The notes under the pieces were generated by a model. The model saw only the letters and a list, made by a program, of their open reading frames with translations. It had not been told where the DNA came from and did no database searches. DNA of 64,000 nucleotides from the NCBI RefSeq assembly GCF_002102355.1, contig NZ_LQPT01000076.1, positions 61,931-125,930 on the forward strand, in the 5' to 3' direction. Every line of letters begins with the position of its first letter. Position 1 is the stretch's first letter. The DNA is from Mycobacterium sherrisii (GTDB taxonomy: Bacteria; Actinomycetota; Actinomycetes; Mycobacteriales; Mycobacteriaceae). Both the position numbers and the translations under genes were made by a program. Shown in pieces: positions 22,478 to 48,331 of the stretch.

Positions 22478-24277
22478 CTAGACGTAGTCCTTGTACTTGT
22501 CGAGCAGCCGGACCGGCTTGGACAGCGCGTCGCGACGGAACGGGTCGCCCAGCTCCCGGGTGCACATGATCTCGACGACCGTTGTCTTGCCCCCTTTCAT
22601 CTGGGCGGCCACGGCGCGCTGCAACGCCGGCCCGACCTCGTCAAGCTTTTCGACGACGATTCCCTCCGCGCCCATCGCCTCGGCGATGCCCGCGAACGAC
22701 TCGCTTTCCAGTTCGGCGGCGACGAACCGACGGTTGTAGAAATCCACCTGGTTCTTCTTTTCCGCACCCCATTGCCGGTTGTGGAAAACGACTCCGGTGA
22801 CCGGTATGTCGTGTCGAACGGCGGTCATGATCTCACCCATGCTCATGGCCCACGCGCCGTCACCGGCATACGCGATGGCCGGCCGCTCGGGAGCGGCGAC
22901 CTTCGCTCCGATGATCGTCGGCAGCGCGTAACCGCAGTTGCCGTAACTCATCGGGGCCAGGAAACTGCGCGGCCGTTCGAATCGCAGATAGCTGTTGGCC
23001 ACCGAGTTGATGTTTCCGATGTCGGTGGACACCATAACGTCGGCCGGCATCGCCTTCTCCAACTCGCGCAGCACCTGCCGCGGATGCAGCCAGTTGCCTT
23101 CCTCCTGCTCCTGTTCGGCGATCATGTCGAGGCTGAACGGGTCGCGCTCGTGGATCCACTCGCTGAGTTCGGTTTCCCAGGAGTCCTTTTCGGCTTGGAT
23201 GGTGGCGGCGCGCTGCTCCCGGGTGGCGTCGCTGGCCAATGTCCGGTTCCGGATCCGTTCCAGCAAGGCAATCGTCGCCGCCTTCGCGTCGCCGCAAATG
23301 CCGACGCTGATCTTTTTGACCAGACCGAGCATCTTTTGGTCGGCGTCGATCTGGATGATCTTGGCGTCTTTCGGCCAGTAGTCCATGCCGTGCTGCGGCA
23401 ACGTGCCAAAGGGCCCGAGCCGGGTGCCGAGCGCGATCACCACATCGGCCCTCGATATCAGTTTCATCGCCGCCTTGGAGCCTTGATAGCCGAGCGGACC
23501 GGTCCACAACGGATGGCTGGCGGGGAAGGAGTCATTGTGCAGGTAGCTGTTGACCACCGGAGCCCCAAGGCGTTCCGCGAAGGCCTTGCACTCCTCGACG
23601 GCGTCGCCCATCACCACGCCGCCACCGGAGATGATCACCGGGAACTCCGCTTCGGCGATCAACTGCGCGGCCTCGTCGAGGCTTTGCGCGCCGCCCGGAC
23701 CGCGATCGAGTCTGCGCGGCTGCGGGATCTCGGTCTCGATCTCCCCATAGAAGAAGTCGCGGGGGACGTTCAGCTGGGTGGGCCCCATCTCGGTGATGGC
23801 GCGGTCAAAGCAGCGTCCGGTGAGCTCCGCCATGCGACGTGGATTGTTCACGTGCCCTTGGTATTTGGTGAATTCCTGGAACATCGGAAGCTGGTTGGCC
23901 TCCTGGAATCCGCCGAGGCCGATGCCCATGGTGCCGGCCTCGGGGGTCACGATGACCACGGGGCTGTGCGCCCAGAAGGCGGCGGCGATCGCGGTGACGC
24001 AGTTGCTGATTCCGGGACCGTTTTGGCCGATGACCACGCCGTGTCGACCGCTGACGCGGGCGTAGCCGTCGGCCATGTGCGCCGCACCTTGCTCGTGTAC
24101 CACCGGAATGAGCCGGATACCGGCCGGGGCGAAGATGTCCATCGCATCCATGAAGGCCGAGCCCATGATGCCGAAGATGTCGGTGACGCCGTTGGCCGCC
24201 ATCGTCTCAACGAACGCCTCGGACGGTGTCATTCGCTGCACACCTGGTACGGCAGTACGAGTGGTTGCATGGGTCAT
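22478..24277 (-). CDS. xsc: Sulfoacetaldehyde acetyltransferase (ThDP-dependent)
   Basis: 599 residues, normal length for Xsc. Reaction: sulfoacetaldehyde + phosphate to acetyl phosphate + sulfite, cytoplasmic. It has the three-domain ThDP fold: catalytic glutamate in VVHEQGAAHMADGYAR, a middle domain with RADVVIALGTRLGPFGTLPQ, and the ThDP/Mg loop GDGAWAMSMGEIMTAVRH followed by NRQWG. The segment GGFQEANQLPMFQEFTKYQ is the feature by which I separate Xsc from acetolactate synthases and glyoxylate carboligase. ATG 24277 has GAGAGGAC upstream. It is divergent from an IclR gene with a palindrome between them. It is the central enzyme of the sulfonate island. Confidence 0.93.
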   Translation of the reverse strand: MTHATTRTAVPGVQRMTPSEAFVETMAANGVTDIFGIMGSAFMDAMDIFAPAGIRLIPVVHEQGAAHMADGYARVSGRHGVVIGQNGPGISNCVTAIAAAFWAHSPVVIVTPEAGTMGIGLGGFQEANQLPMFQEFTKYQGHVNNPRRMAELTGRCFDRAITEMGPTQLNVPRDFFYGEIETEIPQPRRLDRGPGGAQSLDEAAQLIAEAEFPVIISGGGVVMGDAVEECKAFAERLGAPVVNSYLHNDSFPASHPLWTGPLGYQGSKAAMKLISRADVVIALGTRLGPFGTLPQHGMDYWPKDAKIIQIDADQKMLGLVKKISVGICGDAKAATIALLERIRNRTLASDATREQRAATIQAEKDSWETELSEWIHERDPFSLDMIAEQEQEEGNWLHPRQVLRELEKAMPADVMVSTDIGNINSVANSYLRFERPRSFLAPMSYGNCGYALPTIIGAKVAAPERPAIAYAGDGAWAMSMGEIMTAVRHDIPVTGVVFHNRQWGAEKKNQVDFYNRRFVAAELESESFAGIAEAMGAEGIVVEKLDEVGPALQRAVAAQMKGGKTTVVEIMCTRELGDPFRRDALSKPVRLLDKYKDYV

Positions 24278-24311
24278 CGGCTTGTCCTCTCGATCCGGGG
24301 TCTCCGCAATT

Positions 24312-24332
24312 ATTGGAACGCAAGGTTCTAAT
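24312..24332. promoter_or_regulatory. Candidate IclR operator between xsc and iclR
   Basis: ATTGGAACGCAAGGTTCTAAT is a 21-bp imperfect palindrome with GAAC/GTTC half sites, similar to known IclR-family operators. It lies 35 bp upstream of the xsc start codon. Confidence 0.55.
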
Positions 24333-24435
24333 TTCGTGGCTCAGGAGCAGACTAGGGTCCGCCGGCGGCTGGAGTCAATGAATATTTCAAGATTCGGTAT
24401 ACGGCGTCTTGTTTTTTCGCGGCATTCGCGGTTCT

Positions 24436-25275
24436 ATGGAGGCCGACGACGGGAGGGGCATGGGCGACATACACAGCATCGACGAGGCGGCGCTCACCGG
24501 CGATACCCCGACGCTGCGGTTGTTCTCGTTGCTGGAGCTGATTGCGACGAAGAACCAGCTGTTTACCCTGCAGGGCCTGGTAGAGCTGACCGGCACGCCC
24601 AAGCCGACTCTGCATCGCATGCTGCAGCAGCTCGAAGGCGCCGGCCTGCTGATCCGGGAGAACAACGGCCGCCATTACGCGGTCGGGGCACGGCTGCGAC
24701 GAATGGCCGAAACCCTGCTGCTCAACGACAGCCACCACGGCGCGCGTCACTTCGTACTGCGCAACCTGGTGGAGGAACTTGGTGAGAGCTGCAACCTGAC
24801 CGCGTTGTCGGGCGACGAGATCCTGTATGTCGATCGTGTGGAAACGCTTGAGCCCCTGCGCTTCACGCTGCAACCCGGGTCCCGCGTGCCGGTGCACTGT
24901 TCGGCGAGCGGAAAGATGATCCTGTCGCAACTCGCCCCCGTGCAACGGCGCCGGCTGTTGGAGGCGGCCCCGCTCAAGCAATACACCCCCAACACCATCA
25001 CCGACGTGGATCAGATCGAGGAGGAGCTCAAGCAGGTTCGGCGGGACGGATACGCGATTGACGACCAGGAGTTCCTGCCCGGCCTCGTCTGCGCCGCGGT
25101 TCTGGTGCCGTCGCCGTCCGGAATCTCCAACCTCGGCATCGCGGTTCAGGCGCCGGTGATGCGCCTGACACCCGACAAAGCTCTGCGGGTCCTGCCCGCG
25201 TTGCGGCGGGCGGCCGAGGCGATCGGCCAGATCGAGGGCGAGGCGGCCGGCGAGTCGTCGCGAGCAAGCTCATGA
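24436..25275 (+). CDS. IclR-family regulator, probable control of xsc
   Basis: About 279 residues. Winged helix: [29 protein letters not shown]; effector domain: [38 protein letters not shown] and [20 protein letters not shown], all standard for IclR. ATG 24436 is used here; ATG 24460 behind GGGAGGGG is an alternative. Its stop overlaps the next gene by ATGA, making it the first gene of an iclR-cobS-cobT-HAD operon divergent from xsc. Effector unknown; a sulfonate intermediate is expected. Confidence 0.9.
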
Positions 25276-26207
25276 CGCACCTGGTATCCGTCCGAGACAC
25301 ATTCGGCATCGATTCGGATCTGCAGGTCCCCGCCTGCCCCGAACCGGACGAACACGTGCCCGACATCGACCCCGGGTATCGATTCGACGAATCGGCCACG
25401 CTGGCTCTGCTCGCCGGTTTCGCACACAACCGGCGCGTCTTGCTGCAAGGGCTGCACGGCACCGGCAAATCGACACACATCGAACAGGTCGCCGCCCGGC
25501 TGGATTGGCCCTGTGTGCGAGTGAACCTCGACGGCCAGCTCAGCCGGATGGACTTGATCGGGCGCGATGCGGTGACGCTGCGAGATGGCCGACAAGTCAC
25601 CGAGTTTCAAGAGGGCATCCTGCCGTGGGCGATCCAACGGCCCGTCGCACTGGTCCTCGACGAGTACGACGCGGGTCGACCGGAAGTGATGTTCGTGATC
25701 CAGCGCATCCTCGAACACGACGGGAAGCTCACGCTGCTGGACCAGAACCGGGTGATCACACCCCACCCGTGGTTCCGGCTGTTCGCGACCGCCAACACCG
25801 TCGGACTCGGCAACCTCAACGGGCTCTACCACGGCGCGCAGCGGCTCAACCATGCCCAGATCGATCGATGGAACATCGTCGCGTCGCTCAATCACCCACT
25901 GCCACAAGCAGAGATCGACATTGTCGCCGCCAGGGTCCCCGAGGTCGACGGCACTCTCATTGCCGCCATGGTCGCGGTGGCCAACCTGACCCGCACCGGG
26001 TTCCGCGTCGGCGATCTTTCGACCCTGATGTCGCCGCGCACCGTGATCACGTGGGCGGAAAACGTCACGATTTTCGGCGACGTCGGGCTGGCGTTCCGGT
26101 TGTCGTTCGTTAACAAGTGCGACGACGCCGAACGACCGATCATCGCCGAGTACTTCCAGCGCTGTTTCGATCACGAGCTCGATGAGCCCGCGGTGCGCGT
26201 CGCGTGA
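25272..26207 (+). CDS. CobS-like AAA+ ATPase
   Basis: 311 residues. Closest in style to the CobS subunit of aerobic cobaltochelatase: it opens with an R-D-T-F-G-I-D segment, then a P-D-I-D-P-G-Y-x-F linker, Walker [10 protein letters not shown], Walker [10 protein letters not shown] and the sensor [11 protein letters not shown]. CobS works with CobT and the CobN protein to insert cobalt, but no CobN is in the window, and actinobacteria normally use ChlI/ChlD-like partners. ATGA overlap with iclR and GTGA overlap with the VWA gene show a tightly coupled unit. A MoxR- or CbbQ-like activase role for an island enzyme is the main alternative. Confidence 0.85.
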
Positions 26208-27880
26208 GCGACCCGGCGCTCATCCCGCGCGAGCTACCCGCCCGTGAGCTGCGTGCCGCATCCATTCGCGCGCTGAGCGACCAGCACGACCTCCACTTTC
26301 GCGGCACCGCACTGTATCGCGGCCGGCGACCGGTGCCGATGCCGGCGCCGCATCTGCATCCCCCCGCGGATCGCGGAGCAGCCGATGGGATGGCGCTTCG
26401 GCTGCGACACCACGACCCGCACGTACACGCCGCGCTGCTGCCCGAGCACGCGGCGAGCAGGCTGATTTGCGAGATGCTGGAACAGTTTCGGGTGGAGTCG
26501 CTGGTCCCCGCGTCGTGGCCGGGGGTGCGGAGCAATCTCACCGCCCGATTCCGCGAGTGGTCGGCGGCGTTCGAGTCCTCGCGTTCGGCCGAGACGGAGT
26601 CCGGTCTGCTGCTCTACGCCCTCGCGCAGGTCGCCCGTTCGTGGATCACCGCGGAACCCGTCGCCGAGCGGACGCAAGATCTGATCGAACAAACCAGGAT
26701 CGTGTTGACCCGGGTGGTCGGCCGGGAACTCTTAGCGCTTCGCCGAAATCGTCACTGCCAACGTGGTTTCGGGCAGCATGCCCGTCGCATTGCGGAATTG
26801 GTCGCCGACCTGCCCGCGCTGCACGCACCGCCCGGCGAGCCGGATACCGACGGCGAGGTGTTCGCGTGGCTGTTCGACAGCGGATCCGAGGACCACGCCG
26901 GCATACCCGCGGCCGGCGGTCGATACCGGCCGCCCGAGCGCCCGAACGCGCATTATCGAGTGTTCACCGCGGCTTACGACCAGACACGCGACGTCCGGTC
27001 GCTGGCGCGGCCGGCCGAGCTGCGTGAGTACCGCGAGCACCTTGATCGGCTGATCGACGCCAGCGCGGTGGGCGCATCCGTCCTAAGCCGCCGGCTCAGG
27101 ATGCTGCTGGCCGAACCACGCGACGACAGATGGGAGGGCGGCCGCGATTCCGGGCTCGTCGACGGCCGCCGGTTAGCGCGGCTGATCGCGCTACCGAACG
27201 AACGCAACGTCTTTTGCGCCGAGGCCGTGGTTTTCCAACCGGACGCGATCGTGTCGTTCTTGGTGGACTGCTCGGGATCGATGAAGGCGTTGAGCGAGCC
27301 TGTCACCGTGCTGGTCGACGCGTTCGCGCGCGCCCTGGAGCTTGCCGGGGTCGGCTGCGAAATCCTCGGCTTCACGACCGCCGCCTGGGATGGCGGCCGG
27401 GCTCGGCGCGACTGGATCCGTGCCGGGCGGCCGCGAAATCCCGGTCGGCTCAATGAAGTCCGCCATCTCGTGATCAAGAGTGCCGAGACCCCGTACCGAT
27501 CTGCCCGCACGGCGATTGCCGGGTTGCTGAAGGCCGACCTCTACCGCGAGGGTATCGACGGCGAGGCGGTGCAGTGGGCCTGTCGGCGGCTGCACGCGCG
27601 CGAGGAACAACGACGGATACTCGTCGTGATCTCAGACGGCGGTCCGATGGACGCCGCCACCGTCCTGGCCAACGGCCACAACTACCTGGACCGACACCTG
27701 CGCGACGTGCTTGCCGCAAGCTCGGGCGTCGAGATCTGTGCCGTCGGCGTGGGACTGGACCTCAGCATCTACTACGACCGCTTCACGTCAGTGGACCTCG
27801 CCCAAGGCACGACCCGTCGGGTGCTGTCCGAAGTGGCCGACACCATCGCATTGGCAGCCAGAGGAGGGAATTTCCGGTGA
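26204..27880 (+). CDS. CobT-like protein with C-terminal VWA domain
   Basis: 558 residues. The C-terminal ~210 residues match the VWA domain of CobT: MIDAS loop [11 protein letters not shown] near residue 355, [36 protein letters not shown] and [11 protein letters not shown]. The N-terminal region includes [12 protein letters not shown], also CobT-like. The long acidic linker of proteobacterial CobT is reduced. It should form a ring complex with the CobS-like ATPase. It overlaps both neighbours by 4 bp. Given its place beside xsc, cobalt chelation is only one possibility. Confidence 0.82.
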
Positions 27881-28572
27881 CAGAGCAGCGAATTGGGATG
27901 GTTGCGTTAGATATCGCCGGTACCAGCATTGACGAGGGCGGGGCGGTGTACGTGGCGTTGCGCAAGGCGGTGGAGTCGCACACCGGCAAGCCCATCGGGG
28001 ACGACCAATTCGATCGGTGGAAGGGCACGGGTAAGCGCGACGCGATCATCGGACTGCTGGGTGAGGCGACAGTCGACGAGGTCGATGCGGTCGAAAGCAG
28101 GTTCACCGATTCGCTGCTCGACGCGTACCGGTCGGTGCCGCCGGTGCCGTTGCCGGGGATCGTGGACGCCTTCGCCCTCTTGCACGAGCAAAAAATCAAG
28201 ATCGTTCTGCAGACCGGTTATTCGCGCGAGATCGCGGGACCGCTGCTCGATCAGGTGGGCTGGCGCATCGGACGCGACATCGATGCCGTGATCACCAGCG
28301 ACCAGGTGCCGATCAGCCGTCCCGCACCGTACCTGATCTTCCGCGCGATGGAGGCGGTCGGTGTCCAGAGCGTCGCGGAGGTCCTAGTCGCCGGCGATAC
28401 CCCGAACGATCTGCGCGCCGGAACGAATGCCGGTGCGCGATATGTGGCCGGGGTTCTCACTGGTGCTCACGACGCGGCCAGCCTCCGATCGGCCCCGCAC
28501 ACCCACATCCTGGCCAGCGCCGCGACCATTCCCGAGGTGCTCAAACTGCGCGAGGTGGCCACCCAATTCTGA
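27877..28572 (+). CDS. Phosphonatase-like HAD hydrolase (PhnX relative)
   Basis: 231 residues from GTG 27877 (GGAGGG ten bases upstream, GTGA overlap with the VWA gene). HAD motif I is D-I-A-G-T with nucleophile Asp12; in place of the usual second Asp there is Ala, as in phosphonoacetaldehyde hydrolase. A lysine in WKGTGKRDAI falls at residue 53, the position of the Schiff-base lysine of Bacillus PhnX. Motif III/IV region: SRPAPYLIFRAME and VAGDTPNDLRAG. It also resembles the phosphonatase-like clade whose substrate is unknown. No PhnW transaminase is present, so action on a sulfonated aldehyde should be considered. Confidence 0.8.
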   Translation: MTEQRIGMVALDIAGTSIDEGGAVYVALRKAVESHTGKPIGDDQFDRWKGTGKRDAIIGLLGEATVDEVDAVESRFTDSLLDAYRSVPPVPLPGIVDAFALLHEQKIKIVLQTGYSREIAGPLLDQVGWRIGRDIDAVITSDQVPISRPAPYLIFRAMEAVGVQSVAEVLVAGDTPNDLRAGTNAGARYVAGVLTGAHDAASLRSAPHTHILASAATIPEVLKLREVATQF

Positions 28573-28599
28573 ATGGATCGGGCAGCAGCCGACGGGGTG

Positions 28600-29964
28600 T
28601 CAGGCCGGCGAGCGCGAACCGGTGCTTCTGAATTCGACTGTGACCAAGGCTGTTTCATCCGAACCGGGGTAGGTGTCCCGGCGGCGAATCGCCAGGGTTG
28701 TCCCGGCGCTGACCGCGCCGACGACGAAGATGTACACCATGATCAGCGACGTCCTGCCGTTGGCGGCGCTGAGGAGGTACGTCAGAAGCAGCGGCGTCAG
28801 ACCCGAGGCGAAGATTCCGGAGAGTTGATAGACCACCGAGACGCCGCTGTAGCGAACCCGGGTGGGAAACAGGTCCGCGTAGAGCGACGGCTGAGGTCCG
28901 TACATCATCGGGTAGAGGAACCCGAGCATGATGATGATCGTGACGACCGCGGCGCCGGCGGGCCGGTTGCCCAACAGATGGAACGCCGGATAGGTTGCCG
29001 CGGTGCTGAGCACCACGCCCAACGCGAAAAGCTTTCTGTTGTCGTAACGGTCCGCCAGCTTCCCGTACTTCGGGATAAAGAAGACCATTGCGGCCGCCGC
29101 GGCCATCACCGACATCAGCATGGTCTGCCGGCCTATTCCCAAGGTATTGGCGCCGTAGGTGATGACGAACATCGCCCAGGTGTTGAACGCGACACCCTCG
29201 GCCCAGCGGCTTCCCATACCCAGCAACAGGTTTCGTCTCATCCGCGCGTCTGAGACCATTTCCAGCGCCGGCAGGGACGCTCTGGCTTCCAGCTTCTCGA
29301 GCGCGCGGAAGGCCGGGGTTTCCATCACCTTGAGCCGGACGAACGTCCCCACCGCAACCAGCGCCAGACTGAGCATGAAAGCGATTCGCCAACCGAATGC
29401 CAGGAATTGTTCGCTTGACATCACCGAGTTGAGGGCCGCGAAAACCCCTGTGCCCAACATCAATCCAAGCGCAAGACCCAATTGGGGAAGGCTGCCGTAG
29501 TAGCCGCGCTTATCGCGCGGGGCGTACTCGACGGCCATCAGCACGGCGCCGCCCCACTCGCCGCCGATCGCGGCGCCCTGCGCCAGGCGCAGCAATACCA
29601 GCAGGATCGGTGCACTGATCCCGATCGTGGCGTAGCTGGGGATCAGGCCGATCAGAAACGTCGCCAGGCCCATGATGAGCATTGTTGCGATCAATGTTTT
29701 CTTTCGGCCGACGCGGTCGCCGATATGACCGAAGAGCAGGCCGCCGACCGGGCGAGCGACAAATCCGATCGCGAAAGTCGCGAACGCGAGCAGCGTGCCG
29801 ACGAGGGGATCGGTACTGGGAAAGAACAACCGGCGGAACACCAACCCGGCCGCGATCCCGTAGAGGAAGAAGTCGTACCACTCCACGGTCGTTCCCAAAA
29901 TGCTGGACGCAACGACCGTACGAATCTCGGCCCGCGTCGGCGCTGGGACGACCGTGTCGGTCAT
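28600..29964 (-). CDS. MFS transporter, metabolite:H+ symporter (MHS) type
   Basis: 454 residues, 12 predicted membrane helices. Signature of the MHS/ProP-ShiA group: SSILGTTVEWYDFFLYG at the N-terminus, then RPVGGLLFGHIGDRVGRKKTL and RLAQGAAIGGEWGGAVLMAVEY. Substrates of this group are usually small organic acids or osmolytes. ATGA overlap with the alcohol dehydrogenase gene places both in one operon, so the carrier probably imports the substrate of that enzyme; isethionate or another sulfonate is a guess. Confidence 0.85.
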   Translation of the reverse strand: MTDTVVPAPTRAEIRTVVASSILGTTVEWYDFFLYGIAAGLVFRRLFFPSTDPLVGTLLAFATFAIGFVARPVGGLLFGHIGDRVGRKKTLIATMLIMGLATFLIGLIPSYATIGISAPILLVLLRLAQGAAIGGEWGGAVLMAVEYAPRDKRGYYGSLPQLGLALGLMLGTGVFAALNSVMSSEQFLAFGWRIAFMLSLALVAVGTFVRLKVMETPAFRALEKLEARASLPALEMVSDARMRRNLLLGMGSRWAEGVAFNTWAMFVITYGANTLGIGRQTMLMSVMAAAAAMVFFIPKYGKLADRYDNRKLFALGVVLSTAATYPAFHLLGNRPAGAAVVTIIIMLGFLYPMMYGPQPSLYADLFPTRVRYSGVSVVYQLSGIFASGLTPLLLTYLLSAANGRTSLIMVYIFVVGAVSAGTTLAIRRRDTYPGSDETALVTVEFRSTGSRSPA

Positions 29965-31232: not shown

Positions 31233-31254
31233 TCTCGGTGCTCCCTTGATCCGC

Positions 31255-35716: not shown

Positions 35717-35730
35717 GTAAAGGAGCATCC

Positions 35731-38559: not shown

Positions 38560-38566
38560 CGGCGAC

Positions 38567-40026: not shown

Positions 40027-41351
40027 AGCACGGCCGCCTCATCGGGCAGCGGCTGCGGATCGATGCGCAGCGCCGCGATGGCCCCGATGAACAGGAGTGC
40101 GGCGGAGACGGCAAAGGGGACCTGCCAGCTGCCGGTCGCGTCCAGCAGCATGCCGAACACCAGCGGGGAGAGGATGCCCGCGACCCCGAAGCCGGTGTTC
40201 ATCAGCCCGCCCGCGGTGCCGGCATGCTGGGGTGCGATGTCCATGGGGATCGCCCAGAGCACCGCATTGGTCAACTCCAAAAAGAAAAACGACAGCGCAA
40301 GAAACGTCGCGTCGAGTAACAGCCGGTGCGTCACCAGGGTGGGAATTACGAAGAGGAACGATCCCATCAGGCCCACCACGAGCGTGGCGCGCCGAGCGAT
40401 CTTGGGATTGCCCGTTCGCCGCAGCAGCGCGTCGGAGATTACTCCACCCATCGTGTCGCCGACGACCCCGGCCAGCAGCACCAATGTGCTGAACATTGCG
40501 AAGTCCTTGAGATCCAAGCCGTAGCTGCCCTTGAAGAACGATGGCAGCCAGGTGAGGAACACCCACAGCGTCCAGCCGTAGCAGAAGTCGACCAGGGTCA
40601 CCGGAAGAATGCGTCGCAACAGCGGGCCCCACGGGGTGGGGGTGTGTTGTTCGGTTTGCTGATCTTGCGGTAGCTCGGCGAGCTCCGCCGGCGTCATTTT
40701 CGGGTGATCGGCCGGGGAGTCGGTAAACGACCACACCCACGCAACGACCCACAGAAAGCTCACCGCGGCGAAGACCCAGAACGAAAGTCGCCAACCGTAC
40801 AGGGCGATCAGCGCCCCGGCCACCAGCGGGGTGATGGCGTTCCCGAGCCGGGCGGCGGCATGCGTCACGCCTTGCGCCAGCCCGCGCTGGTCTGGTGGCA
40901 TCCATTTCGCCATCGCGTGTGTCGCGGTCGGGAAGGAGGCTCCTTCGCCGAAGCCGAGTGCCAGCCGGGCCGCGAACAGCGACACCAATCCGACAGCAAA
41001 CCCGGTCGCCGCCGTCGACACCGCCCAGACGACGCCGACGATGCCGAGCACGATCCGGGGCCCGAAGCGGTCGCCGATCATCCCGCCGAAGATCTGGAAG
41101 AACGCGTACGGCAGTGCGAAAGCCGAAAGCGTCAGTCCCAGTTGGGTATTCGTCAATCCGAGTTCACCTTTGATGAACGGCGCGGCCGTCGCGATGTTCA
41201 CCCGATCCACGTAGGTGACGAAGTACAGCATGCAGAGCAGCAGCAGCACCTTGCCACGCACCCGCCCCACGAATGCGGTGCGCAGCGACGGTCTGGCCTT
41301 TGCTGTCGGTTGCCCGTGCGGGGCGTCGAGACGGAATGCAGGTTTGAGCAT
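40023..41351 (-). CDS. MFS transporter, anion:cation symporter (ACS) type; candidate sulfoacetate importer
   Basis: 442 residues from ATG 41351, 12 predicted helices. N-terminal LYFVTYVDRVNIATAAPFIKGELGL and GGMIGDRFGPR are ACS-family features; the group imports hexuronates, hydroxyphenylacetate and similar acids. It is divergent from pta-sauS-sucCD genes. The sulfoacetate permease SauU of Cupriavidus is also an MFS protein, so this carrier is my first choice for sulfoacetate uptake. No sequence feature fixes the substrate. Confidence 0.8.
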   Translation of the reverse strand: MLKPAFRLDAPHGQPTAKARPSLRTAFVGRVRGKVLLLLCMLYFVTYVDRVNIATAAPFIKGELGLTNTQLGLTLSAFALPYAFFQIFGGMIGDRFGPRIVLGIVGVVWAVSTAATGFAVGLVSLFAARLALGFGEGASFPTATHAMAKWMPPDQRGLAQGVTHAAARLGNAITPLVAGALIALYGWRLSFWVFAAVSFLWVVAWVWSFTDSPADHPKMTPAELAELPQDQQTEQHTPTPWGPLLRRILPVTLVDFCYGWTLWVFLTWLPSFFKGSYGLDLKDFAMFSTLVLLAGVVGDTMGGVISDALLRRTGNPKIARRATLVVGLMGSFLFVIPTLVTHRLLLDATFLALSFFFLELTNAVLWAIPMDIAPQHAGTAGGLMNTGFGVAGILSPLVFGMLLDATGSWQVPFAVSAALLFIGAIAALRIDPQPLPDEAAVL

Positions 41352-41426
41352 CAACGGTCACCACCTAGCTATGGCCTCGGGCGGCAACGCGGCACCGGGG
41401 CTCATCCCATTATGTGAAAGCGCATC

Positions 41427-41458: not shown

Positions 41459-41685
41459 GGCGGTGTGATGTCAATGACGCGCGGGCGGCAAGTTACGCCG
41501 GAGGCGGCCGTCGTCCCGGAAAAGGCGTTGTAGGACAACGTGATACACGTGTTTGGCGACTGTGCTCGATTCCGCCGGGCGGTGTCCGGTGTTCCCCGTC
41601 CGGCCTTGACAGCCGCCAGCCACCATGGAAGGTTGGGAAATGATTTCATAAGTTGAAATACGCCCGACGCCGACTGCGAGGATCG

Positions 41686-42756
41686 ATGACCGTCAGCGAC
41701 ATCGCCCCTGCCCCGATGGCCGCCGTGGATCCGCGCGCCGGCCATGGCGGTCTGCACGCCCTGCGGGCGTCCTGGCGCAGCGTCCTGGCAGGCCGAAGGG
41801 TCCGCGTGGCTCTGGCCGACGGCGAAGACCCACGCGTGATCGCCGCATCGGTGCGGCTGAGCGAAGCCGGGACGGTCGCGCCTCATCTCGTCGGCCGGCG
41901 CACGGTGATCCAAGAGGTCGCGGATCGCAACGGAATCCGGCCGCTACGGGGGGTGTCGATCGTAGACGTCGCCTGCCCCGACGAGGCCGAGCGCGTGGCC
42001 GCGGTGTTGCGGGACGCGCTGTCGCCCCGCTTGGAGTGTGCAGAAATCCTTGAGCTGCAGTCGGATCCGTTGTACGCGGCGGCCGCCCTGCTGCGCATGG
42101 GCTCGGTCGAAGCCTGCGTGGGGGGTGCGTCTCGCCCGACCGCGGAGGTGCTGCGGGCCGGGCTTCGGGTGATCGGGACTGCTACCGGCACGCACACGCT
42201 GTCGAGCTGCTTCGTCATGGCGCTGCCATCTGGACAGTTGATCGCCTACGGCGACTGTGCGGTCGTCCCGATGCCCGACGACCGACAGCTCGCCGAGATC
42301 GCGGTGGCGACGGCGATGACGTACCGTTCGCTGACCGGGGCGGCCCCCGTGGTCGCGATGCTCTCGTTCAGCACCATGGGCAGCGCGGCACACGCCGAGG
42401 TCGACAAGGTCCGCCGGGCCGCCGAGATGGCCCGTCGACTCCGCCCCGGGCTGCCGATCGAGGGGGAGCTGCAGTTCGACGCCGCGTTCGTCGCCGACAT
42501 TGGCGCCAGGAAGGCACCGGGGTCCGTCGTTGCCGGCCAGGCCAACGTGATGATCTTTCCCAACCTCGACGCGGGCAACATCGGATACAAGATCACCCAA
42601 AGGATCGGCGGTGCGGCCGCACTCGGCCCGATCCTGCAAGGCTTCGCCAAGCCCATCAACGACCTGTCCCGCGGGTGCAGCGTCGACGACATCGAATTCG
42701 TGGCGCTGGCAAGCGCCGTCCAAGCCGTCACCGCGACGGCACCATTGCCCAAGTAG
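41686..42756 (+). CDS. pta: Phosphate acetyltransferase
   Basis: 356 residues, single PTA_PTB domain as in the short Pta forms of sulfonate gene clusters. Converts the acetyl phosphate made by Xsc to acetyl-CoA. Recognisable segments: RVRVALADGEDPRVIAAS, SCFVMALPSGQLIAYGDCAV, AMLSFSTMGSA and QANVMIFPNLDAGNIGYKITQR near the C-terminus. ATG 41686 follows GAGGATC; an upstream TTG in frame is unlikely. First gene of a four-gene unit with only 16 bp to the next. Confidence 0.92.
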   Translation: MTVSDIAPAPMAAVDPRAGHGGLHALRASWRSVLAGRRVRVALADGEDPRVIAASVRLSEAGTVAPHLVGRRTVIQEVADRNGIRPLRGVSIVDVACPDEAERVAAVLRDALSPRLECAEILELQSDPLYAAAALLRMGSVEACVGGASRPTAEVLRAGLRVIGTATGTHTLSSCFVMALPSGQLIAYGDCAVVPMPDDRQLAEIAVATAMTYRSLTGAAPVVAMLSFSTMGSAAHAEVDKVRRAAEMARRLRPGLPIEGELQFDAAFVADIGARKAPGSVVAGQANVMIFPNLDAGNIGYKITQRIGGAAALGPILQGFAKPINDLSRGCSVDDIEFVALASAVQAVTATAPLPK

Positions 42757-42772
42757 GAGAAGAGAATCCATC

Positions 42773-44194
42773 ATGACGACGTCACCCCCGCACGCAGCCG
42801 AGACCGCCGAACAGGTGGTCGCCGAGATGGTGCGACGTGCCCGCACGGCCCAAGCCGAGTTCGCGGGATATTCCCAGGAGCGCGTCGATCATGTTGTCGC
42901 GGCGGTCGCATGGGCGATCGCCGAGCCGACCAGGGCGCTCGAGCTCGCCGAGCTGGCGGTGCGCGACACCGGGCTGGGCAATGTCGAGGACAAGACGTTG
43001 AAGAACCGACGCAAGACCATGGGCACGCTGCGCGATTTGACGGGTGCAAAGTCGGTGGGCATCATCAGCGACGACCCCAAAACCGGCATCACAGAATATG
43101 CAAAGCCGATGGGCGTCGTCGCGGCAGTCTGTCCCTCCACCAATCCCGCCGCCACCCCCGCCAACAAGGCAATGATGGTGCTCAAGGGCGGCAACGCGGT
43201 CATTTTGTCCCCGTCTCCCAAGGGAGCATCCACCTGCGCTCTTCTGGTGCGGCACATTCACGAACAGTTCGACCGGCTGGGTGTGCCGCGAGATCTGGTG
43301 CAGTACACCGCGGTTCCGTCCAAAGCGGTTACCTACGAGTTGATGCGGCAGGCCGACTTCGTCGTCGTGACGGGGTCGCAGAAGAACGTGCGCGCCGCGT
43401 ACAGCAGTGGAACCCCCGCCATCGGCGTCGGTGTGGGCAACGCGCCGGTCATCATCGACGCCGACGCGGATCTCGACGATGCGGCGGCAAAGATTCACGC
43501 CAGCAAGACATTTGATTACGCCACCAGCTGTTCCTCGGAGAACTCGGTGCACATCCACACCGACGTCTACGACGCCGCGATCGACGCGCTGCGGCGTCAA
43601 GGCGCGTATCTGGTGAGCGCCCAGGAGAAGCGCCGCCTGCAGCAGGTGATGTGGCCGGACGGCAAACTCAGCGCCGAGATCACCGCGCAGCCGCCGGGCA
43701 AGATCGCGGCGCTGGCCGGGTTCAACGAGCAGGGCGCACACGACGCCGACTTCTTCCTGGTCGAGGAGGACGGCTACGGCCCCGACCACCCGTTCAGCGG
43801 CGAGAAGCTCTCCGTCGTGCTCACCGTGTACCGCTTCACCGACCTTGACGAGGCCCTCGACCGGATCCAGGGGATCCTGGATTTCCAGGGCGCGGGTCAT
43901 TCGTGCGGCATACACACCAAAAACGACGATCGGGCCCGCCACGTCGCGGAGCGGCTGAAGGTGGCTCGGGTACTGGTCAACCAGGCGCATTGCTTCGGCA
44001 CGGGAGGCGGATTCGACAACGGGCTCGGATTCACCCTCACGATGGGTGCGGGCACCTGGGCCGGCAACAGCATCTCCCACAACCTGTCCTACCGGGACTT
44101 CCTCAACATCACCCGGCTCGCGCGGGTCATCCCGGCTTGTGAACCCACCGAAGCGGACCTGTGGGGCTCCTACTTCGAAACTTACGGACGGTGA
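42773..44194 (+). CDS. CoA-acylating aldehyde dehydrogenase, sulfoacetaldehyde dehydrogenase (SauS)-like
   Basis: 473 residues. Acylating ALDH of the EutE/AdhE-N type: KPMGVVAAVCPSTNPAATPANK, VTGSQKNVRAAYSSGTPAIGVGVGNAP, and catalytic Cys253 in ATSCSSENSVH. With Xsc, Pta and a CoA ligase around it, the reaction should be sulfoacetyl-CoA + NAD(P)H to sulfoacetaldehyde + CoA, as for SauS of Cupriavidus necator. Ordinary acetaldehyde or succinic semialdehyde activity cannot be excluded from sequence alone. Three bases separate its stop from the next start. Confidence 0.85.
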   Translation: MTTSPPHAAETAEQVVAEMVRRARTAQAEFAGYSQERVDHVVAAVAWAIAEPTRALELAELAVRDTGLGNVEDKTLKNRRKTMGTLRDLTGAKSVGIISDDPKTGITEYAKPMGVVAAVCPSTNPAATPANKAMMVLKGGNAVILSPSPKGASTCALLVRHIHEQFDRLGVPRDLVQYTAVPSKAVTYELMRQADFVVVTGSQKNVRAAYSSGTPAIGVGVGNAPVIIDADADLDDAAAKIHASKTFDYATSCSSENSVHIHTDVYDAAIDALRRQGAYLVSAQEKRRLQQVMWPDGKLSAEITAQPPGKIAALAGFNEQGAHDADFFLVEEDGYGPDHPFSGEKLSVVLTVYRFTDLDEALDRIQGILDFQGAGHSCGIHTKNDDRARHVAERLKVARVLVNQAHCFGTGGGFDNGLGFTLTMGAGTWAGNSISHNLSYRDFLNITRLARVIPACEPTEADLWGSYFETYGR

Positions 44195-44196
44195 GC

Positions 44197-45351
44197 ATGA
44201 AACTTCTTGAATACCAAGGCAAGCGACTGCTGGCCGACGCCGGCGTACGCATTCCGGAGGGGCGGGTCGTCGACTCGCCCGAGGAGGCGACGCGGGCGGC
44301 CGCGGTACTCGGCGGTCGGGTGGTGCTCAAGGCCCAGGTGCCGGCGGGCAAACGCGGCAAGTCGGGCGGGGTCTTGTTCGCCGACTCGCCGGAGCAGGCC
44401 GCCGCCGCGGCCCGCGAGCTGCTCGGCGCCGAGATGGGTGGATATCGCGTGCAGCAGGTCCTGCTCGAGCAATGCGTGGACATCGAGCAGGAGCTTTACG
44501 CCGCCATCCTCAACGACGCCCGGACCAAGGGGCCGCTGTTGCTGTTTTCCACCGCGGGCGGTATGGACATCGAAGAGATCAACGCCGAATCGCCGCATCG
44601 CGTGCACCGGTTGCCCGTAGACATCTTGTGGGGCCTGGACGAGGACCTCGCCGGTGACATGCTGGCCGGTACCGACCTGCCCGAGAAGTCGCGGGGTGCC
44701 GTGGCCCATGCGCTGGCAGCGCTCTATCAGACCTACCGGGCGGCCGACGCCGACCTGGTCGAGGTCAACCCGCTGGCCGTCACGGCCGCTGGCGAGCTTG
44801 TGGCCCTGGACAGCAAGGTATCGCTGGATCCCGGTGCGCTGTCGCGTCATTCGTCGTTCGTCGCCGAGCTGCGCACAGATCAGCTGGAGGTAGGGACGGA
44901 TCTCGAACGCCGCGGTCGCGAACTGGGCCTGCAATTCATCGAGCTCGACGGCGACATCGGAATTCTGGCCAACGGCGCGGGACTGACCATGACGAGCCTG
45001 GACGTGGTCAACCACTACGGCGGCAAACCGGCCAATTTCTTGGAGATCGGCGGCGACGCCTACACGAAGGCCACCCCGGCTCTGAAGCTGGTCTTGGACA
45101 ATCCGCGGGTCCGCAGCCTGCTGATCAATTTCTGTGGTGCCTTCGCCCGCACCGATGTCATGGCCGAAGGTGTTGTCGCCGCCATCGAAGAACTGCGACC
45201 GGACATTCCGTACTTCTTCACCATTCACGGCACCGGCGAACAAGAGGCGATCCGCCTGGTGCAAGAGCGGCTTTCGGTGACGCCGTACGAACTCATGGAC
45301 GATGCCGTCCAGGCCGCAGTCGCGGCCGCGGCGACCACGGTGGAGGTGTGA
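44197..45351 (+). CDS. SucC-like beta subunit of an ADP-forming acyl-CoA ligase, probably sulfoacetate-specific
   Basis: 384 residues: ATP-grasp domain (MKLLEYQGKRLLADAGV, VVLKAQVPAGKRGKSGGV, VEVNPLAV) followed by the CoA-ligase domain (GAGLTMTSLDVVNHYGGKPANFLEIGGDA). That is the build of succinyl-CoA synthetase beta. A housekeeping sucCD would not be expected between an acylating ALDH and sulfonate genes, so it is assigned as sulfoacetate-CoA ligase by context. ATP + CoA + sulfoacetate would give sulfoacetyl-CoA. Coupled to the alpha gene by a GTGA overlap. Confidence 0.83.
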   Translation: MKLLEYQGKRLLADAGVRIPEGRVVDSPEEATRAAAVLGGRVVLKAQVPAGKRGKSGGVLFADSPEQAAAAARELLGAEMGGYRVQQVLLEQCVDIEQELYAAILNDARTKGPLLLFSTAGGMDIEEINAESPHRVHRLPVDILWGLDEDLAGDMLAGTDLPEKSRGAVAHALAALYQTYRAADADLVEVNPLAVTAAGELVALDSKVSLDPGALSRHSSFVAELRTDQLEVGTDLERRGRELGLQFIELDGDIGILANGAGLTMTSLDVVNHYGGKPANFLEIGGDAYTKATPALKLVLDNPRVRSLLINFCGAFARTDVMAEGVVAAIEELRPDIPYFFTIHGTGEQEAIRLVQERLSVTPYELMDDAVQAAVAAAATTVEV

Positions 45352-46268
45352 CGATGTTGATTCGCAGCGGGGAAACGGTCGTCGTCCAAGGGATTACCGG
45401 TAGGCAAGGGTCGTATTGGACCGAGCGCATGGTCGAATGCGGCACCCGAGTCGTGGCGGGTGCGAGTCCCGGGCGCGGGGGCCGGACGGTCAATTCCATT
45501 CCCGTTTATGACAGCGTGGTGCAGGCGGCGGCCCAACACCGGCTGGACGCCTCCGTGCTGTTCGTCCCACCGATGCACGCCAGGGCCGCCGCCCTCGATG
45601 CGATCGAGGCGGGTGTTCGCAAGCTGGTGCTGCTCACCGAACACGTGCCCGCCCAGGACGTCATGGAGATTCTTGCCCGCGCCGCGGCGGCCGGAACCAC
45701 GGTGCTCGGTCCAAACACCGCGGGCCTGGTCGTGCCGGGCGAAACGTCGGTCGGCATCATGCCGGGCTTCGCGCGCAACATCTTTCAACCGGGCCCGATC
45801 GGGGTCATCTCGCGCAGCGGCAGCCTGGGCACCTTGGTGTCGATGGAACTGATCACTGCCGGTTTCGGCCAGAGCGCCTTCATCGGGATCGGTGGCGACC
45901 CGATCTTGGGCACGACCACGCTGGACGCGGTGCGCCTTCTCGACGCCGACGAGCGGACGTCGGCCGTCGTCGTCGTCGGTGAAATCGGCGGTGCGATGGA
46001 GGAGGAGGCTGCGGCGTACATCGCGTCGATGACCAAGCCCGTCGTCGCCTTCATCGCCGGTCGCACCGCGCCCCCGGGGCAGCGGATGGGCCACGCCGGC
46101 GCCATCGTGACCGGCGGCCGCGGTAGCGGCGAGTCGAAGGTGCGCGCGCTCACCGAGGCCGGTGCGGTGGTCGTTGACGTGCCCAGCGCGGTGGGTGAAG
46201 CGCTGCGCGCCGCGGGCGTCGAAGCCACGGCGGCGCCGGCCGAGCCCGCGCGCAGCGGATCCGCATAA
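45348..46268 (+). CDS. SucD-like alpha subunit of an ADP-forming acyl-CoA ligase
   Basis: 306 residues. CoA-binding Rossmann start VVVQGITGRQGSYWTERM, PNTAGLV, SRSGSLGTLVSMEL and the active-site histidine H249 in RMGHAGAIV, which is phosphorylated in SucD. GTG 45348 overlaps the beta-subunit stop; ATG 45354 is an alternative. Together with the beta subunit it forms the proposed sulfoacetate-CoA ligase. Only 8 bp separate its stop from the convergent LysR gene. Confidence 0.83.
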   Translation: MTMLIRSGETVVVQGITGRQGSYWTERMVECGTRVVAGASPGRGGRTVNSIPVYDSVVQAAAQHRLDASVLFVPPMHARAAALDAIEAGVRKLVLLTEHVPAQDVMEILARAAAAGTTVLGPNTAGLVVPGETSVGIMPGFARNIFQPGPIGVISRSGSLGTLVSMELITAGFGQSAFIGIGGDPILGTTTLDAVRLLDADERTSAVVVVGEIGGAMEEEAAAYIASMTKPVVAFIAGRTAPPGQRMGHAGAIVTGGRGSGESKVRALTEAGAVVVDVPSAVGEALRAAGVEATAAPAEPARSGSA

Positions 46269-46276
46269 CGCCGAGG

Positions 46277-47176
46277 CTAGGCCGGTTCCGAAAAGATCAG
46301 CTTCAACAACATGGCCGCGGTGCCGTCGAGCCGTCGTGCACCGCGCCAGACCGCCCGCAGCGACCTTGGCATGTGCAGATCTTGGACGGCAACGACATTC
46401 AGGTGACCGGTCCGGACGTCCTCGGCGATGGCGAGTGTGCTGAGCACGGCCGGTCCGACGCCGTTGAGCGCCGACGTGCGGATTGCCGACGCGCTGCCGA
46501 GTTCCAGCAGCGGGGCGGCGATTTCGTAATCTCGCAGGGCCAATTCAAGGGTGGTTCGGGTGCCGGACCCGGCCTCGCGAACGAGCAGCGGCGTCGCGGC
46601 CAACTCGGCCGCCGTCAGCGGTGCGCGGCGACGCGCCCAAGGGTGCTGTGGATGGACCACGACGACCAGTTCGTCGCGTGCGACCTCGGTGCTGTGCAGG
46701 CCCCGAACCGGATTCGGCGACTCGATGAACCCGACGTCGCACGAGCCGCTGCGGACCTCTTCGATCACCTGGGTCGAGTTGCGGGCCTGAAGATAAATTG
46801 TCACGCCGGGATACTGCGCGCGAAACCTGGCCAGCCACACCGGCATCAGGTGCTCCGCGACGGTGATGCTGGCCGTGACGGTCAACTGCGCGCCGCGTTC
46901 GGCCTTGAGTCCCTCCGCGACGATCAATAGCTTGTCGATGTCGGCCAGAATCTGACGCGCCCAATGCGCCAGGACGGTGCCTTGCGCCGTCAGCGTCGAA
47001 CCGTTGGGACTGCGTTCGACGAGCGGCAGGGCGAAGCGTCGCTCCAGTCCCCTGATCGCGCGGCTGGCGTTCGGCTGCGACATCTGGACCGAACGCGCAG
47101 CGGCACTGAGACTTCCGTGATCGTCGACACCGACGAGCAGTCTGAGCGCCTCAAAAGGCGGTAGCCGCAGCGACAT
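46277..47176 (-). CDS. LysR-family regulator paired with the YeiH-like exporter
   Basis: 299 residues from ATG 47176; a TATAGT box ends 6 bases upstream, so translation probably starts at the 5' end of the mRNA. HTH: SLSAAARSVQMSQPNASRAIRGLERRFA; effector domain similar to the LysR at 33.1 kb (VTASITVAEHLMPVWLARF, VREAGSGTRTTLELAL). Divergent from a YeiH-family gene, the same arrangement as yeiE/yeiH in E. coli. Expected effector: sulfite or a related anion, by analogy. Confidence 0.88.
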   Translation of the reverse strand: MSLRLPPFEALRLLVGVDDHGSLSAAARSVQMSQPNASRAIRGLERRFALPLVERSPNGSTLTAQGTVLAHWARQILADIDKLLIVAEGLKAERGAQLTVTASITVAEHLMPVWLARFRAQYPGVTIYLQARNSTQVIEEVRSGSCDVGFIESPNPVRGLHSTEVARDELVVVVHPQHPWARRRAPLTAAELAATPLLVREAGSGTRTTLELALRDYEIAAPLLELGSASAIRTSALNGVGPAVLSTLAIAEDVRTGHLNVVAVQDLHMPRSLRAVWRGARRLDGTAAMLLKLIFSEPA

Positions 47177-47179
47177 ACC

Positions 47180-47230
47180 CGAACTATATGACCAGCCTGC
47201 CCGTTGGGTATGCATCCTTGATATGACCAG
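47180..47230. promoter_or_regulatory. LysR binding region between lysR and the YeiH-like gene
   Basis: ATATGACCAG occurs twice, at 47186-47195 and 47221-47230, spaced 35 bp. Between them GGGTATGCATCC and, further on, ATACCC give LysR-style half sites. The first copy overlaps the minus-strand -10 box of lysR, in line with autoregulation. Confidence 0.5.
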
Positions 47231-47281
47231 ATACCCATTTGGTGGCTACCGGCGTCCCTGGTCGTGGCCCAACGTTGAGGA

Positions 47282-48331
47282 ATGATCAGTTCACTGGGCC
47301 AGGAGCACATGCGCGAGGGGACGGCCAGGCCGTTGCGGCGGGCACCCAACCCGGTCGCGGTCGGTCCCGGAGTCGCCCTCTGCGCCATCGCGACCGCCGG
47401 CACCTTGGCAATCAATCACTGGTTGCCCACGGTGAGTCCACTGTTGATCGCGATCGTGCTTGGCGCGGTGGCGGCCAACGTCGCACCCTTGCCGCGCTGG
47501 TTGCGACCCGGACTGCAGTTCTCCGCGAAACGACTGCTGCGCATCGGGGTCGCGATGCTGGGCCTGCAGCTGGTCCTGGGCGACATCCTGCGCCTGGGCT
47601 ACGGCGTCATCATCGTCGTCGTCGCCATCGTGGGCCTGGGCATCGGCGGCACCATGTTCGTGGGCAGGTTGCTCGGTCTGAGTTGGACACAGCGCCTGTT
47701 GATTGCGTGCGGCTTCTCGATTTGCGGCGCCGCCGCCGTCGCCGCCGTCGACGGGGTGATCCAGGCCGAGGACGACGAAGACGTCCCCACCGCGATTGCG
47801 CTGGTGGTGATCTGCGGGACGCTGATGATCCCGCTGGTTCCCGCACTCGCGCATGCGCTGCGGCTGTCGGACCTCGCCGCCGGCGCCTGGGCGGGCGGGT
47901 CGATTCACGAGGTCGCCCAGGTGGTTGCTGCCGCCGCCACGATGGGAGGCGGCGCGTTGGGGGTGGCCGTGGTGGTGAAGTTGGCGCGGGTGCTGATGCT
48001 CGCGCCGGTGATGGCGGTGCTCAGCGTTCGACAGCGCAGGATCGCCGGGACCGGAACGGACATCAAACGTCCGCCGCTGGTGCCGCTGTTCGTCGTCGCC
48101 TTCATGGTCTGCGTCGCACTGCGTTCCGCCGGCGTCGTCCCCACCCACGCGCTGCAGTACGCCAAGGTCGTGCAGGTCGCCCTGCTCAGTGCGGCCATGT
48201 TCGCGCTCGGCACCGGCGTGCACGCGTCGGTCCTCAAGAAGGTCGGTCCCCGCCCGTTCGTCTTGGCGATCGTGTCCACCGGGTGGATCGCAAGCGTCGC
48301 CCTGACCGGGGTGGTGCTGGCGTCCCGCTGA
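47282..48331 (+). CDS. YeiH-family (UPF0324) putative sulfate/sulfite exporter
   Basis: 349 residues, about 10 predicted membrane helices. Family marks: SPLLIAIVLGAVAAN, RIGVAMLGLQLVLGDI, GFSICGAAAVAAV and GGSIHEVAQVVAAA. Members are often encoded with sulfonate degradation genes, where export of sulfate or sulfite is needed. The divergent LysR supports induction by a sulfur oxyanion. ATG 47309 is a possible later start. Confidence 0.85.
   Translation: MISSLGQEHMREGTARPLRRAPNPVAVGPGVALCAIATAGTLAINHWLPTVSPLLIAIVLGAVAANVAPLPRWLRPGLQFSAKRLLRIGVAMLGLQLVLGDILRLGYGVIIVVVAIVGLGIGGTMFVGRLLGLSWTQRLLIACGFSICGAAAVAAVDGVIQAEDDEDVPTAIALVVICGTLMIPLVPALAHALRLSDLAAGAWAGGSIHEVAQVVAAAATMGGGALGVAVVVKLARVLMLAPVMAVLSVRQRRIAGTGTDIKRPPLVPLFVVAFMVCVALRSAGVVPTHALQYAKVVQVALLSAAMFALGTGVHASVLKKVGPRPFVLAIVSTGWIASVALTGVVLASR

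Follow-up and report, generated by a model that had tools for sequence, protein, structure and literature searches.

Sulfoacetaldehyde acetyltransferase (Xsc) is central to the aerobic breakdown of taurine, isethionate and sulfoacetate, and in pairs such as CbbQ/CbbO and NorQ/NorD a MoxR-class ATPase and a partner with a von Willebrand factor A (VWA) domain activate an enzyme that is encoded nearby; we know of no earlier motor of this kind for a thiamine-diphosphate enzyme. The present analysis concerns a 64,000-nucleotide stretch of the Mycobacterium sherrisii contig NZ_LQPT01000076.1 (the window), in which genes for the breakdown of two-carbon (C2) sulfonates, xsc among them, lie together with genes for a CobS-like AAA+ ATPase and a CobT-like VWA protein (cobST). 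The sulfoacetate route of Cupriavidus necator H16 resembles this locus in SauS, in a carrier of the major facilitator superfamily (MFS) and in the intermediates sulfoacetyl-CoA and sulfoacetaldehyde, but it uses SauT, whereas the ligase of the window is of the two-subunit ADP-forming SauCD type (PMC12625764). Bilophila wadsworthia has the SauC, SauD and SauS types in common with the window, and its SauCD and SauS catalyse the same two sulfoacetate steps, but sulfoacetaldehyde is then reduced to isethionate, which is cleaved by a glycyl radical enzyme, whereas in the window cleavage is assigned to Xsc (PMC12890257, PMC12625764). On balance, we favour the view that the block is an acquired island with two inputs of C2 sulfonates, which takes sulfoacetaldehyde to acetyl-CoA and carries a CobS/CobT-like motor that services the subgroup of Xsc to which the enzyme of the window belongs.

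The association between xsc and cobST is strong. Among 397 Mycobacteriales genomes, the CobT_C domain and Xsc were found in exactly the same nine, and the two were neighbours in all nine; the probability of this co-occurrence by chance is 1.6e-18 if the genomes are treated as independent and 3e-8 when counted by genus (5 of 85 genera), with shared ancestry uncorrected in both figures. In a set of 18 named genomes bearing SauS, which may overlap with the other genome samples, all 14 with an Xsc of 1031–1090 bits encode CobT_C at a distance of 2.1–3.3 kb and in divergent orientation, with iclR1 lying between xsc and cobST in 12 of these loci and no iclR1 match in the remaining two, both from Sciscionella; CobT_C is absent from all three genomes whose sole Xsc scores 834–856 bits. 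One genome (G1147; G and L numbers denote surveyed genomes and loci) has both Xsc types, and CobT_C adjoins the first only, while in G1149 no Xsc was found and its CobT falls outside the Xsc-linked clade. Plasmid records matching Xsc at the limit used numbered 167, with 10 at 80–90% identity and 157 below 60% (best 30 of 167), and seven of the 10 carry a CobT homologue (39–47% identity) within 4 kb; all seven are beta/gamma-proteobacterial (two Cupriavidus, two Burkholderia, Paraburkholderia, Caballeronia and Photobacterium). CobT_C was absent from all five Xsc-bearing genomes of other classes, among them G1010, the Xsc of which is 77% identical to that of the window. An aminotransferase of the PRK06541 family, which would fit a taurine route, adjoins xsc in G460 and G710 and lies about 13 kb away in G721; because cobST is thus present in taurine-, isethionate- and sulfoacetate-type clusters alike, Xsc is the common partner. 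In G721 (L052, L050), PdxS, a MocR-like regulator and GABA-permease-like carriers make up a taurine-type set with the PRK06541 aminotransferase, all within about 15 kb of xsc–cobST.

The linked enzymes also share features of their own. In the Xsc tree, the CobST-linked subgroup forms a branch of 32 rows with support of 99/99, which includes the Xsc of Rhodococcus sp. DK17, that of G1010 and a second copy from G659. The motif S-L-D-x-I of an insertion is present in all 29 linked Xsc and is missing or different in all eight of the other subgroup, and the C-terminus of the linked enzymes reads D-Y-V in 28 cases and D-F-V in one. Among the subgroup members without cobST, the second G659 copy has lost both insertion and tail, the Xsc of G1010 keeps the insertion as S-I-D-M-I and ends in A-E-Y-T, and that of DK17 keeps both. 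The long branches of two CobST-less Xsc (0.49 and 0.50) were set aside as an indication, since they represent two lineages, one with an aberrant end, and the CobST-linked Leekyejoonella enzyme is also long-branched (0.38). A search of PDB sequences at E values up to 1e-60 gave no Xsc, the two matches both being BbmA.

A putative IclR operator, GGAAC-N5-GTTCC, accompanies the linked genes. Its best match upstream of the 29 linked xsc covers all 10 positions in seven loci, nine in nine, eight in nine and seven in four, compared with six or seven positions upstream of the eight xsc of the other subgroup; for the CobST-less members of the linked subgroup the values are eight (DK17), seven (G1010) and nine (second G659 copy). 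Since the pattern was derived from actinobacterial sites, independence is limited to the proteobacterial matches. In Burkholderia arboris and B. multivorans a perfect site stands upstream of both xsc and cobS, the starts of which are 6.4 kb apart, Paraburkholderia phymatum has nine of the 10 positions at both genes, and the other three beta/gamma-proteobacterial loci have seven or eight at cobS. The site counts solely upstream of xsc and cobS; a role as a general operator of the island was ruled out, as the pattern with one mismatch occurs 15 times in the whole window against 16.7 expected.

The pair has the architecture of a MoxR/VWA system, namely an AAA+ protein with Walker motifs and a VWA partner with a metal-ion-dependent adhesion site (MIDAS), and CbbQ and NorQ are among the sequence matches of the CobS-like protein. 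Both members fall below the cobaltochelatase equivalog cut-offs (489 bits versus 558.55 for the CobS-like and 288 versus 759 for the CobT-like protein). Apart from the CobT-like protein, no CobT_C protein was found in the genome. In the tree, the Xsc-linked CobT group in a single clade (29 rows, support 100/100) separate from six others, one of which comes from the urease gene group of Pandoraea; the MIDAS reads DCSGS in 28 of the 29 (DLSGS in Leekyejoonella) and DNSGS in all six others. It is improbable, in our judgement, that the pair is instead a cobaltochelatase ATPase which works with the CobN of the genome and which stands beside xsc for historical reasons. The solved CobS and CobT are closely similar in sequence to the window pair, and CobN is encoded on another contig. 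The CobS-like protein is close to true CobS by score, and the Caballeronia pair, the sole annotated proteobacterial case, adjoins a gene for a CobW-like GTPase (116 bits, below the cut-off); these last two points weigh against a motor for Xsc, and the pair may have a metal or cobalamin role. However, CobT_C is confined to Xsc-bearing genomes among the 397 Mycobacteriales, the Xsc-linked CobT form their own clade, the operator-like site is shared in part with xsc, and no cobalamin-dependent step is known to us in the C2-sulfonate pathway. In addition, a table in PMC8192938 lists cobN for many mycobacteria, some of them with a ChlI chelatase component, and this pair is not named in it.

Still less probable is maturation of another enzyme of the cluster by the pair, either at the metal site of the iron-containing alcohol dehydrogenase (Fe-ADH) or in the molybdenum enzyme. 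Metal enzymes are common clients of MoxR/VWA pairs, and on the Pandoraea oxalativorans plasmid pPO70-1 (L120, 2517–9975) cobS and cobT directly follow ureG beside urease genes, which suggests that such pairs serve other enzymes, possibly metalloenzymes, too; but in G438, G460, G480, G486, G666 and G710 cobST is present and tblastn found no window-like Fe-ADH or molybdenum complex in the 20-kb neighbourhoods of xsc, although distant copies are possible. A second AAA ATPase/CobT-like pair (CobT_C 97 bits), preceded by a DoxX-family gene, was seen on the Caballeronia sp. NK8 plasmid at a distance from xsc (L129, 5541–8388).

We favour Xsc as the client. The CobS-like/CobT-like pair would be a dedicated AAA+/VWA motor that activates, assembles or repairs the Xsc of this subgroup in the manner of the CbbQ/CbbO and NorQ/NorD pairs, and its likely handles would be the flexible insertion (about residues 365–377 of 584) and the conserved C-terminal tail ending in D-Y/F-V. 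A narrower version, in which the subgroup needs an 'Xsc activase' that resembles Rubisco activase, grips the insertion or the tail and frees the active site from a dead-end state, is put forward tentatively, as somewhat less probable than not. In the structure model of Xsc (mean pLDDT 84, pTM 0.89), the low-confidence stretches are 365–376 (the insertion), 488–510 and the tail 561–584 (51–65), although low pLDDT can also reflect the shallow alignment of 25 rows. Further points count against the motor reading. The related plasmids of Rhodococcus DK17, DK176 and DK180 encode an Xsc of the subgroup and CobT was not found on them, the DK17 enzyme being nearly identical to that of G721, which has the pair; the Xsc of G1010 and the second G659 copy have no adjoining cobST, and the latter nevertheless has nine operator positions. 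As the linked subgroup shows no variation at 61% of the Xsc columns, the invariant tail alone is weak evidence, and 13 of the 29 linked loci match the operator at seven or eight positions, a level that shuffled sequence reaches in 5–62% of trials (200 base shuffles each). Moreover, linkage cannot separate a motor for Xsc from one for phosphate acetyltransferase (Pta) or another shared partner. The range of the proposed motor comprises Actinomycetota and Pseudomonadota, with a PhnX-like hydrolase accompanying the pair in mycobacteria and G721.

The gene for this hydrolase (TIGR03351, 243 bits versus a cut-off of 218.9) lies directly 3' of cobT in the window, a Mycobacteriaceae metagenome-assembled genome (MAG), Mycolicibacterium agri and G721 (L048, L164, L050), and weaker homologues (32–41%) occur elsewhere in two other loci (L053, L111). 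Its identity as a true phosphonatase is unproven: the D-x-A-G-T motif is kept and the match to PhnX is limited to residues 80–192. Perhaps it clears a phosphonate analogue of sulfoacetaldehyde or an inhibitor.

The initial annotation had proposed a complete path from sulfoacetate to acetyl-CoA with export of sulfate. Sulfoacetate catabolism is well supported, SauS and a SucCD-like ligase both being present, whereas for the exporter sulfite is the better reading, as discussed below. Xsc scores 1078 bits against TIGR03457 (cut-off 676.4), covering 1–579 of 579, and SauS 807 bits against NF047625 (equivalog cut-off 600); Pta reaches 334 bits with PRK09653 (cut-off 310) and 294 bits with TIGR00651, the cut-off of which (311) is not attained, and the SucC- and SucD-like subunits score slightly under the SucC and SucD cut-offs. 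The order sauS–sauC–sauD is kept in the window and in 17 of the 18 SauS loci of the named genomes, L026 being the exception, and in 11 of the 18 the second carrier gene and sauS are transcribed divergently. Compared with the Rhodococcus sp. DK17 plasmid cluster, identity is 67% for the carrier, 75% for SauS, 62% for SauC and 74% for SauD. All substrate assignments made here are predictions from sequence: sulfoacetate would be imported by the MFS carrier encoded at 40 kb and, after activation by SauCD, SauS would reduce it to sulfoacetaldehyde, from which Xsc would form acetyl phosphate and sulfite and Pta would then form acetyl-CoA. When 129 loci were compared, the core of the perfect repeat before pta was found in two, that of the window itself and one from Caballeronia (L082, 12308–12322). 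SauS-like proteins of 45–48% identity, below the cut-off, occur in six other mycobacteria (L030–L037), in three of which four neighbouring frames gave no family match; they possibly belong to coenzyme M or alkene clusters, and a sulfoacetaldehyde dehydrogenase is described near epoxide genes of M. rhodesiae (PMC11507031).

Isethionate is the second probable input. It was named in the initial annotation without any gene; the Fe-ADH and MHS-family carrier operon fits it, since the two genes are paired and the carrier shares 48% identity with the one of the MHS family on the Caballeronia NK8 plasmid. The Caballeronia carrier gene follows xsc, pta, an IclR gene and a gene for a dehydrogenase of the choline dehydrogenase (GMC) family, which we take to be IseJ-like. 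Isethionate would thus enter through the MHS carrier (IseU-like) and be oxidized by Fe-ADH to sulfoacetaldehyde, the node shared with the sulfoacetate branch. Weighing against this assignment, Fe-ADH scores low with both of its closest models, at 216 bits with the choline dehydrogenase GbsB (best model, cut-off 550), the substrate of which is likewise a charged two-carbon alcohol, and at 193 bits with the sulfoacetaldehyde reductase SarD (cut-off 700). The match to SarD, and the fact that Fe-ADHs are frequently reductases, would suit a scheme in which sulfoacetate is the sole substrate, Fe-ADH reduces sulfoacetaldehyde and isethionate leaves the cell as overflow through the MHS carrier. We regard this scheme as rather unlikely, as the SarD score is far under its cut-off and slightly below that of GbsB, the product of the overlapping carrier gene resembles a carrier that adjoins an IseJ-like dehydrogenase, and the fetched stretches of G721 contain Fe-ADH, carrier and xsc but no sau genes, although the taurine-type aminotransferase mentioned above is nearby.

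For the sulfite released by Xsc, the block encodes the components of a SoeABC-type complex, that is, a molybdenum subunit, a 4Fe–4S subunit and an NrfD-like anchor, the last two being fused. Neither protein has a twin-arginine (RR) pair in its first 60 residues; this suggests a cytoplasmic orientation of the complex. SoeC is described as NrfD-like and is recorded in Proteobacteria, Firmicutes and Aquificae, and the same orientation is proposed for SoeABC, in contrast to Ttr and Dms (PMC8076601). A reductase of the polysulfide or tetrathionate type in place of a sulfite dehydrogenase is a minority possibility: no Soe model was among the matches, the best being TtrB for the Fe–S part (203 bits) and PhsA for the molybdenum part (162 bits), both below their cut-offs, and the molybdenum subunit is only 30% identical over 246 amino acids to its counterpart beside xsc in Azospirillum. 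On the other side stand the absence of the signal, as in the cytoplasmic orientation proposed for SoeABC (PMC8076601), and the recurrence of the complex near sau and xsc genes in several genera. YeiH (168 bits with its family model, cut-off 232.6; 223 bits with Pfam PF03601) is divergent from lysR2, which scores 140 bits with the YeiE model (cut-off 480), and sulfite resistance of Salmonella involves control of YeiH by YeiE (PMC12880088). YeiH is therefore better read as a sulfite exporter; sulfite would be oxidized by the cytoplasm-facing molybdenum/Fe–S–NrfD complex, and YeiH would serve for export under the YeiE-like regulator.

The block is an inserted island of about 21,674–48,380, flanked on opposite sides by nrdE (13788–15908) and nrdF2 (48498–49472). 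A NrdF2 query matched 57 of 60 genomes of the genus, and among the matches 30 loci were listed, one of them the window's own. In four of the 29 others (L134, L136, L143, L145), fewer than 200 bases separate nrdF from the gene for a polyketide cyclase that stands ahead of the island in the window (21212–21694), and at these empty sites the alignment breaks off at window position 21673 and returns at 48365–48390; the remaining loci have other genes there, often the monooxygenase gene that follows nrdE in the window, or no recognized window gene. G033 has an nrdF neighbourhood without the island (L155) and the same modules on another contig. No direct or inverted repeats of at least 10 bases were found at the island ends, and scans of 20–40 kb for sigma-70 promoters and terminators gave no excess. 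The class Ib ribonucleotide reductase locus (13788–49472) is divided by the island here and by different genes in other relatives, and the nrdE–nrdF2 region may be a frequent site of insertion.

The features of the island are collected in Table 1. Family searches at 22.5–48.3 kb recovered everything in the initial gene list (Xsc, Pta, SauS, a CoA ligase, two MFS carriers, a molybdenum oxidoreductase, YeiH and five regulators, three IclR and two LysR), although the limits given there, 22478–48331, fall slightly inside those of the island. That list lacked Fe-ADH, the Mrp ATPase, the two DUF202 proteins and, beside xsc, the CobS/CobT-like pair together with the PhnX-like hydrolase. In agreement with the earlier description, no aminotransferase or taurine dehydrogenase is among the annotated genes of the block, the rest of the genome not having been searched for these. 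Judging by overlaps and short gaps, iclR1–cobS–cobT–phnX-like (24436–28572, +), feADH–MHS carrier (31232–28600, −), soeBC–soeA–mrp (34172–39691, +) and pta–sauS–sauC–sauD (41686–46268, +) look like operons; xsc, the second carrier and yeiH stand alone. M. agri and the Mycobacteriaceae MAG also have a DUF202 homologue (50–54%), placed there between feADH and soeBC.

Table 1. Features of the sulfonate island and the basis of their assignment (positions in the window).
Feature	Position	Strand	Basis or remark
Two DUF202 membrane-protein genes	21703–22035 and 22032–22403	−	Family search
xsc, sulfoacetaldehyde acetyltransferase, CobST-linked subgroup	22478–24232	−	TIGR03457
Putative IclR operator GGAAC-N5-GTTCC	24315–24329		9/10 positions; 83–97 bp upstream of xsc
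iclR1, IclR-family regulator	24436–25275	+	Family search
CobS-like AAA+ ATPase	25272–26207	+	Walker A GLHGTGKS and Walker B LVLDE intact
CobT-like protein, VWA/MIDAS domain (DCSGS)	26204–27880	+	Family search, motif
PhnX-like HAD hydrolase	27898–28572	+	TIGR03351 above cut-off
MHS-family MFS carrier, putative isethionate uptake	28600–29964	−	48% identity to Caballeronia carrier
Fe-ADH, putative isethionate dehydrogenase	29961–31232	−	4-base overlap with carrier gene
iclR2, IclR-family regulator	31455–32276	−	Family search
iclR3, IclR-family regulator	32289–33080	−	62% identity to IclR adjoining sau genes, Rhodococcus plasmid
lysR1, LysR-family regulator	33129–34037	−	Family search
4Fe–4S ferredoxin–NrfD anchor fusion (SoeB+SoeC-like)	34172–35716	+	Family search
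Molybdopterin oxidoreductase (SoeA-like), without twin-arginine signal	35731–38559	+	Family search
Mrp/ApbC Fe–S carrier ATPase	38567–39691	+	Family search
MFS carrier, SauU-like by position	40023–41261	−	67% identity to carrier adjoining sauS, Rhodococcus plasmid
Perfect inverted repeat ATTTCATAAGTTGAAAT, ATTTCA-N5-TGAAAT, possible operator	41643–41659		Upstream of pta–sauSCD
pta, phosphate acetyltransferase	41686–42756	+	PRK09653
sauS, acylating sulfoacetaldehyde dehydrogenase	42773–44194	+	NF047625
sauC, SucC-like ligase subunit	44197–45351	+	Family search
sauD, SucD-like ligase subunit	45348–46268	+	Family search
lysR2, LysR-family regulator	46277–47083	−	YeiE model, below cut-off
YeiH-family exporter, putatively for sulfite	47282–48331	+	PF03601

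The route is rare in the genus. Counting the genome of the window each time, Xsc above the cut-off was found in two of 148 genomes of the genus, nine of 397 of the order and six of 396 of the phylum, and SauS in two of 396 genomes of the genus. The 18 SauS loci of the named genomes include M. agri, Prauserella, Amycolatopsis, Pseudonocardia, Saccharopolyspora, Sciscionella and Leekyejoonella. No mycobacterial pathway of this kind for sulfoacetate or sulfoacetaldehyde was found among the open-licence papers listed, nor, judging by titles and abstracts, any report there linking Xsc, isethionate or sulfoacetaldehyde to CobS, CobT, cobaltochelatase or MoxR; the former result agrees with the initial statement that none had been described in mycobacteria, while the same modules do co-occur, in other orders, in M. 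agri, the Mycobacteriaceae MAG and Pseudonocardiaceae. On the Rhodococcus DK17 plasmid pDK3 (L081, 8097–22866), sauSCD–xsc–pta is accompanied by genes for an NAD(P) transhydrogenase and thiamine genes (thiazole synthase, thiS), without cobST. An Azospirillum brasilense plasmid carries genes for an aldehyde dehydrogenase, SucC, SucD, a three-gene molybdenum complex, xsc, a YeiH-type exporter and a LysR gene; its Xsc is of a different subgroup and 49% identical to that of the window. With both on this plasmid, the pairing of Xsc and a ligase of the SauCD type extends beyond actinobacteria.

In conclusion, the island combines in a new way catabolic steps that are known elsewhere, and the CobS/CobT/PhnX-like genes are its most unusual part. 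For mycobacteria, it would represent an acquired, modular route to carbon and sulfur from sulfonates. If an ATP-driven motor is indeed needed, Xsc activity assayed without it may be underestimated, a known ATPase family would gain a new type of client, and CobS/CobT annotations would be accounted for in bacteria whose cobalamin route needs neither. The Caballeronia sp. NK8 plasmid resembles the island in xsc, pta, an MHS carrier, IclR regulators and a CobS/CobT-like pair, but its dehydrogenase belongs to the GMC family, whereas that of the window is an Fe-ADH. With the cobaltochelatase CobS/CobT the window pair shares the AAA+ plus CobT/VWA architecture and the Walker and MIDAS motifs, but it belongs to a separate clade, has DCSGS in place of DNSGS and, in the loci seen, is tied to xsc rather than to cobalamin genes. 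Compared with CbbQ/CbbO and NorQ/NorD, the pair is nearer to CobS/CobT in sequence, and its proposed client is a thiamine-diphosphate enzyme.

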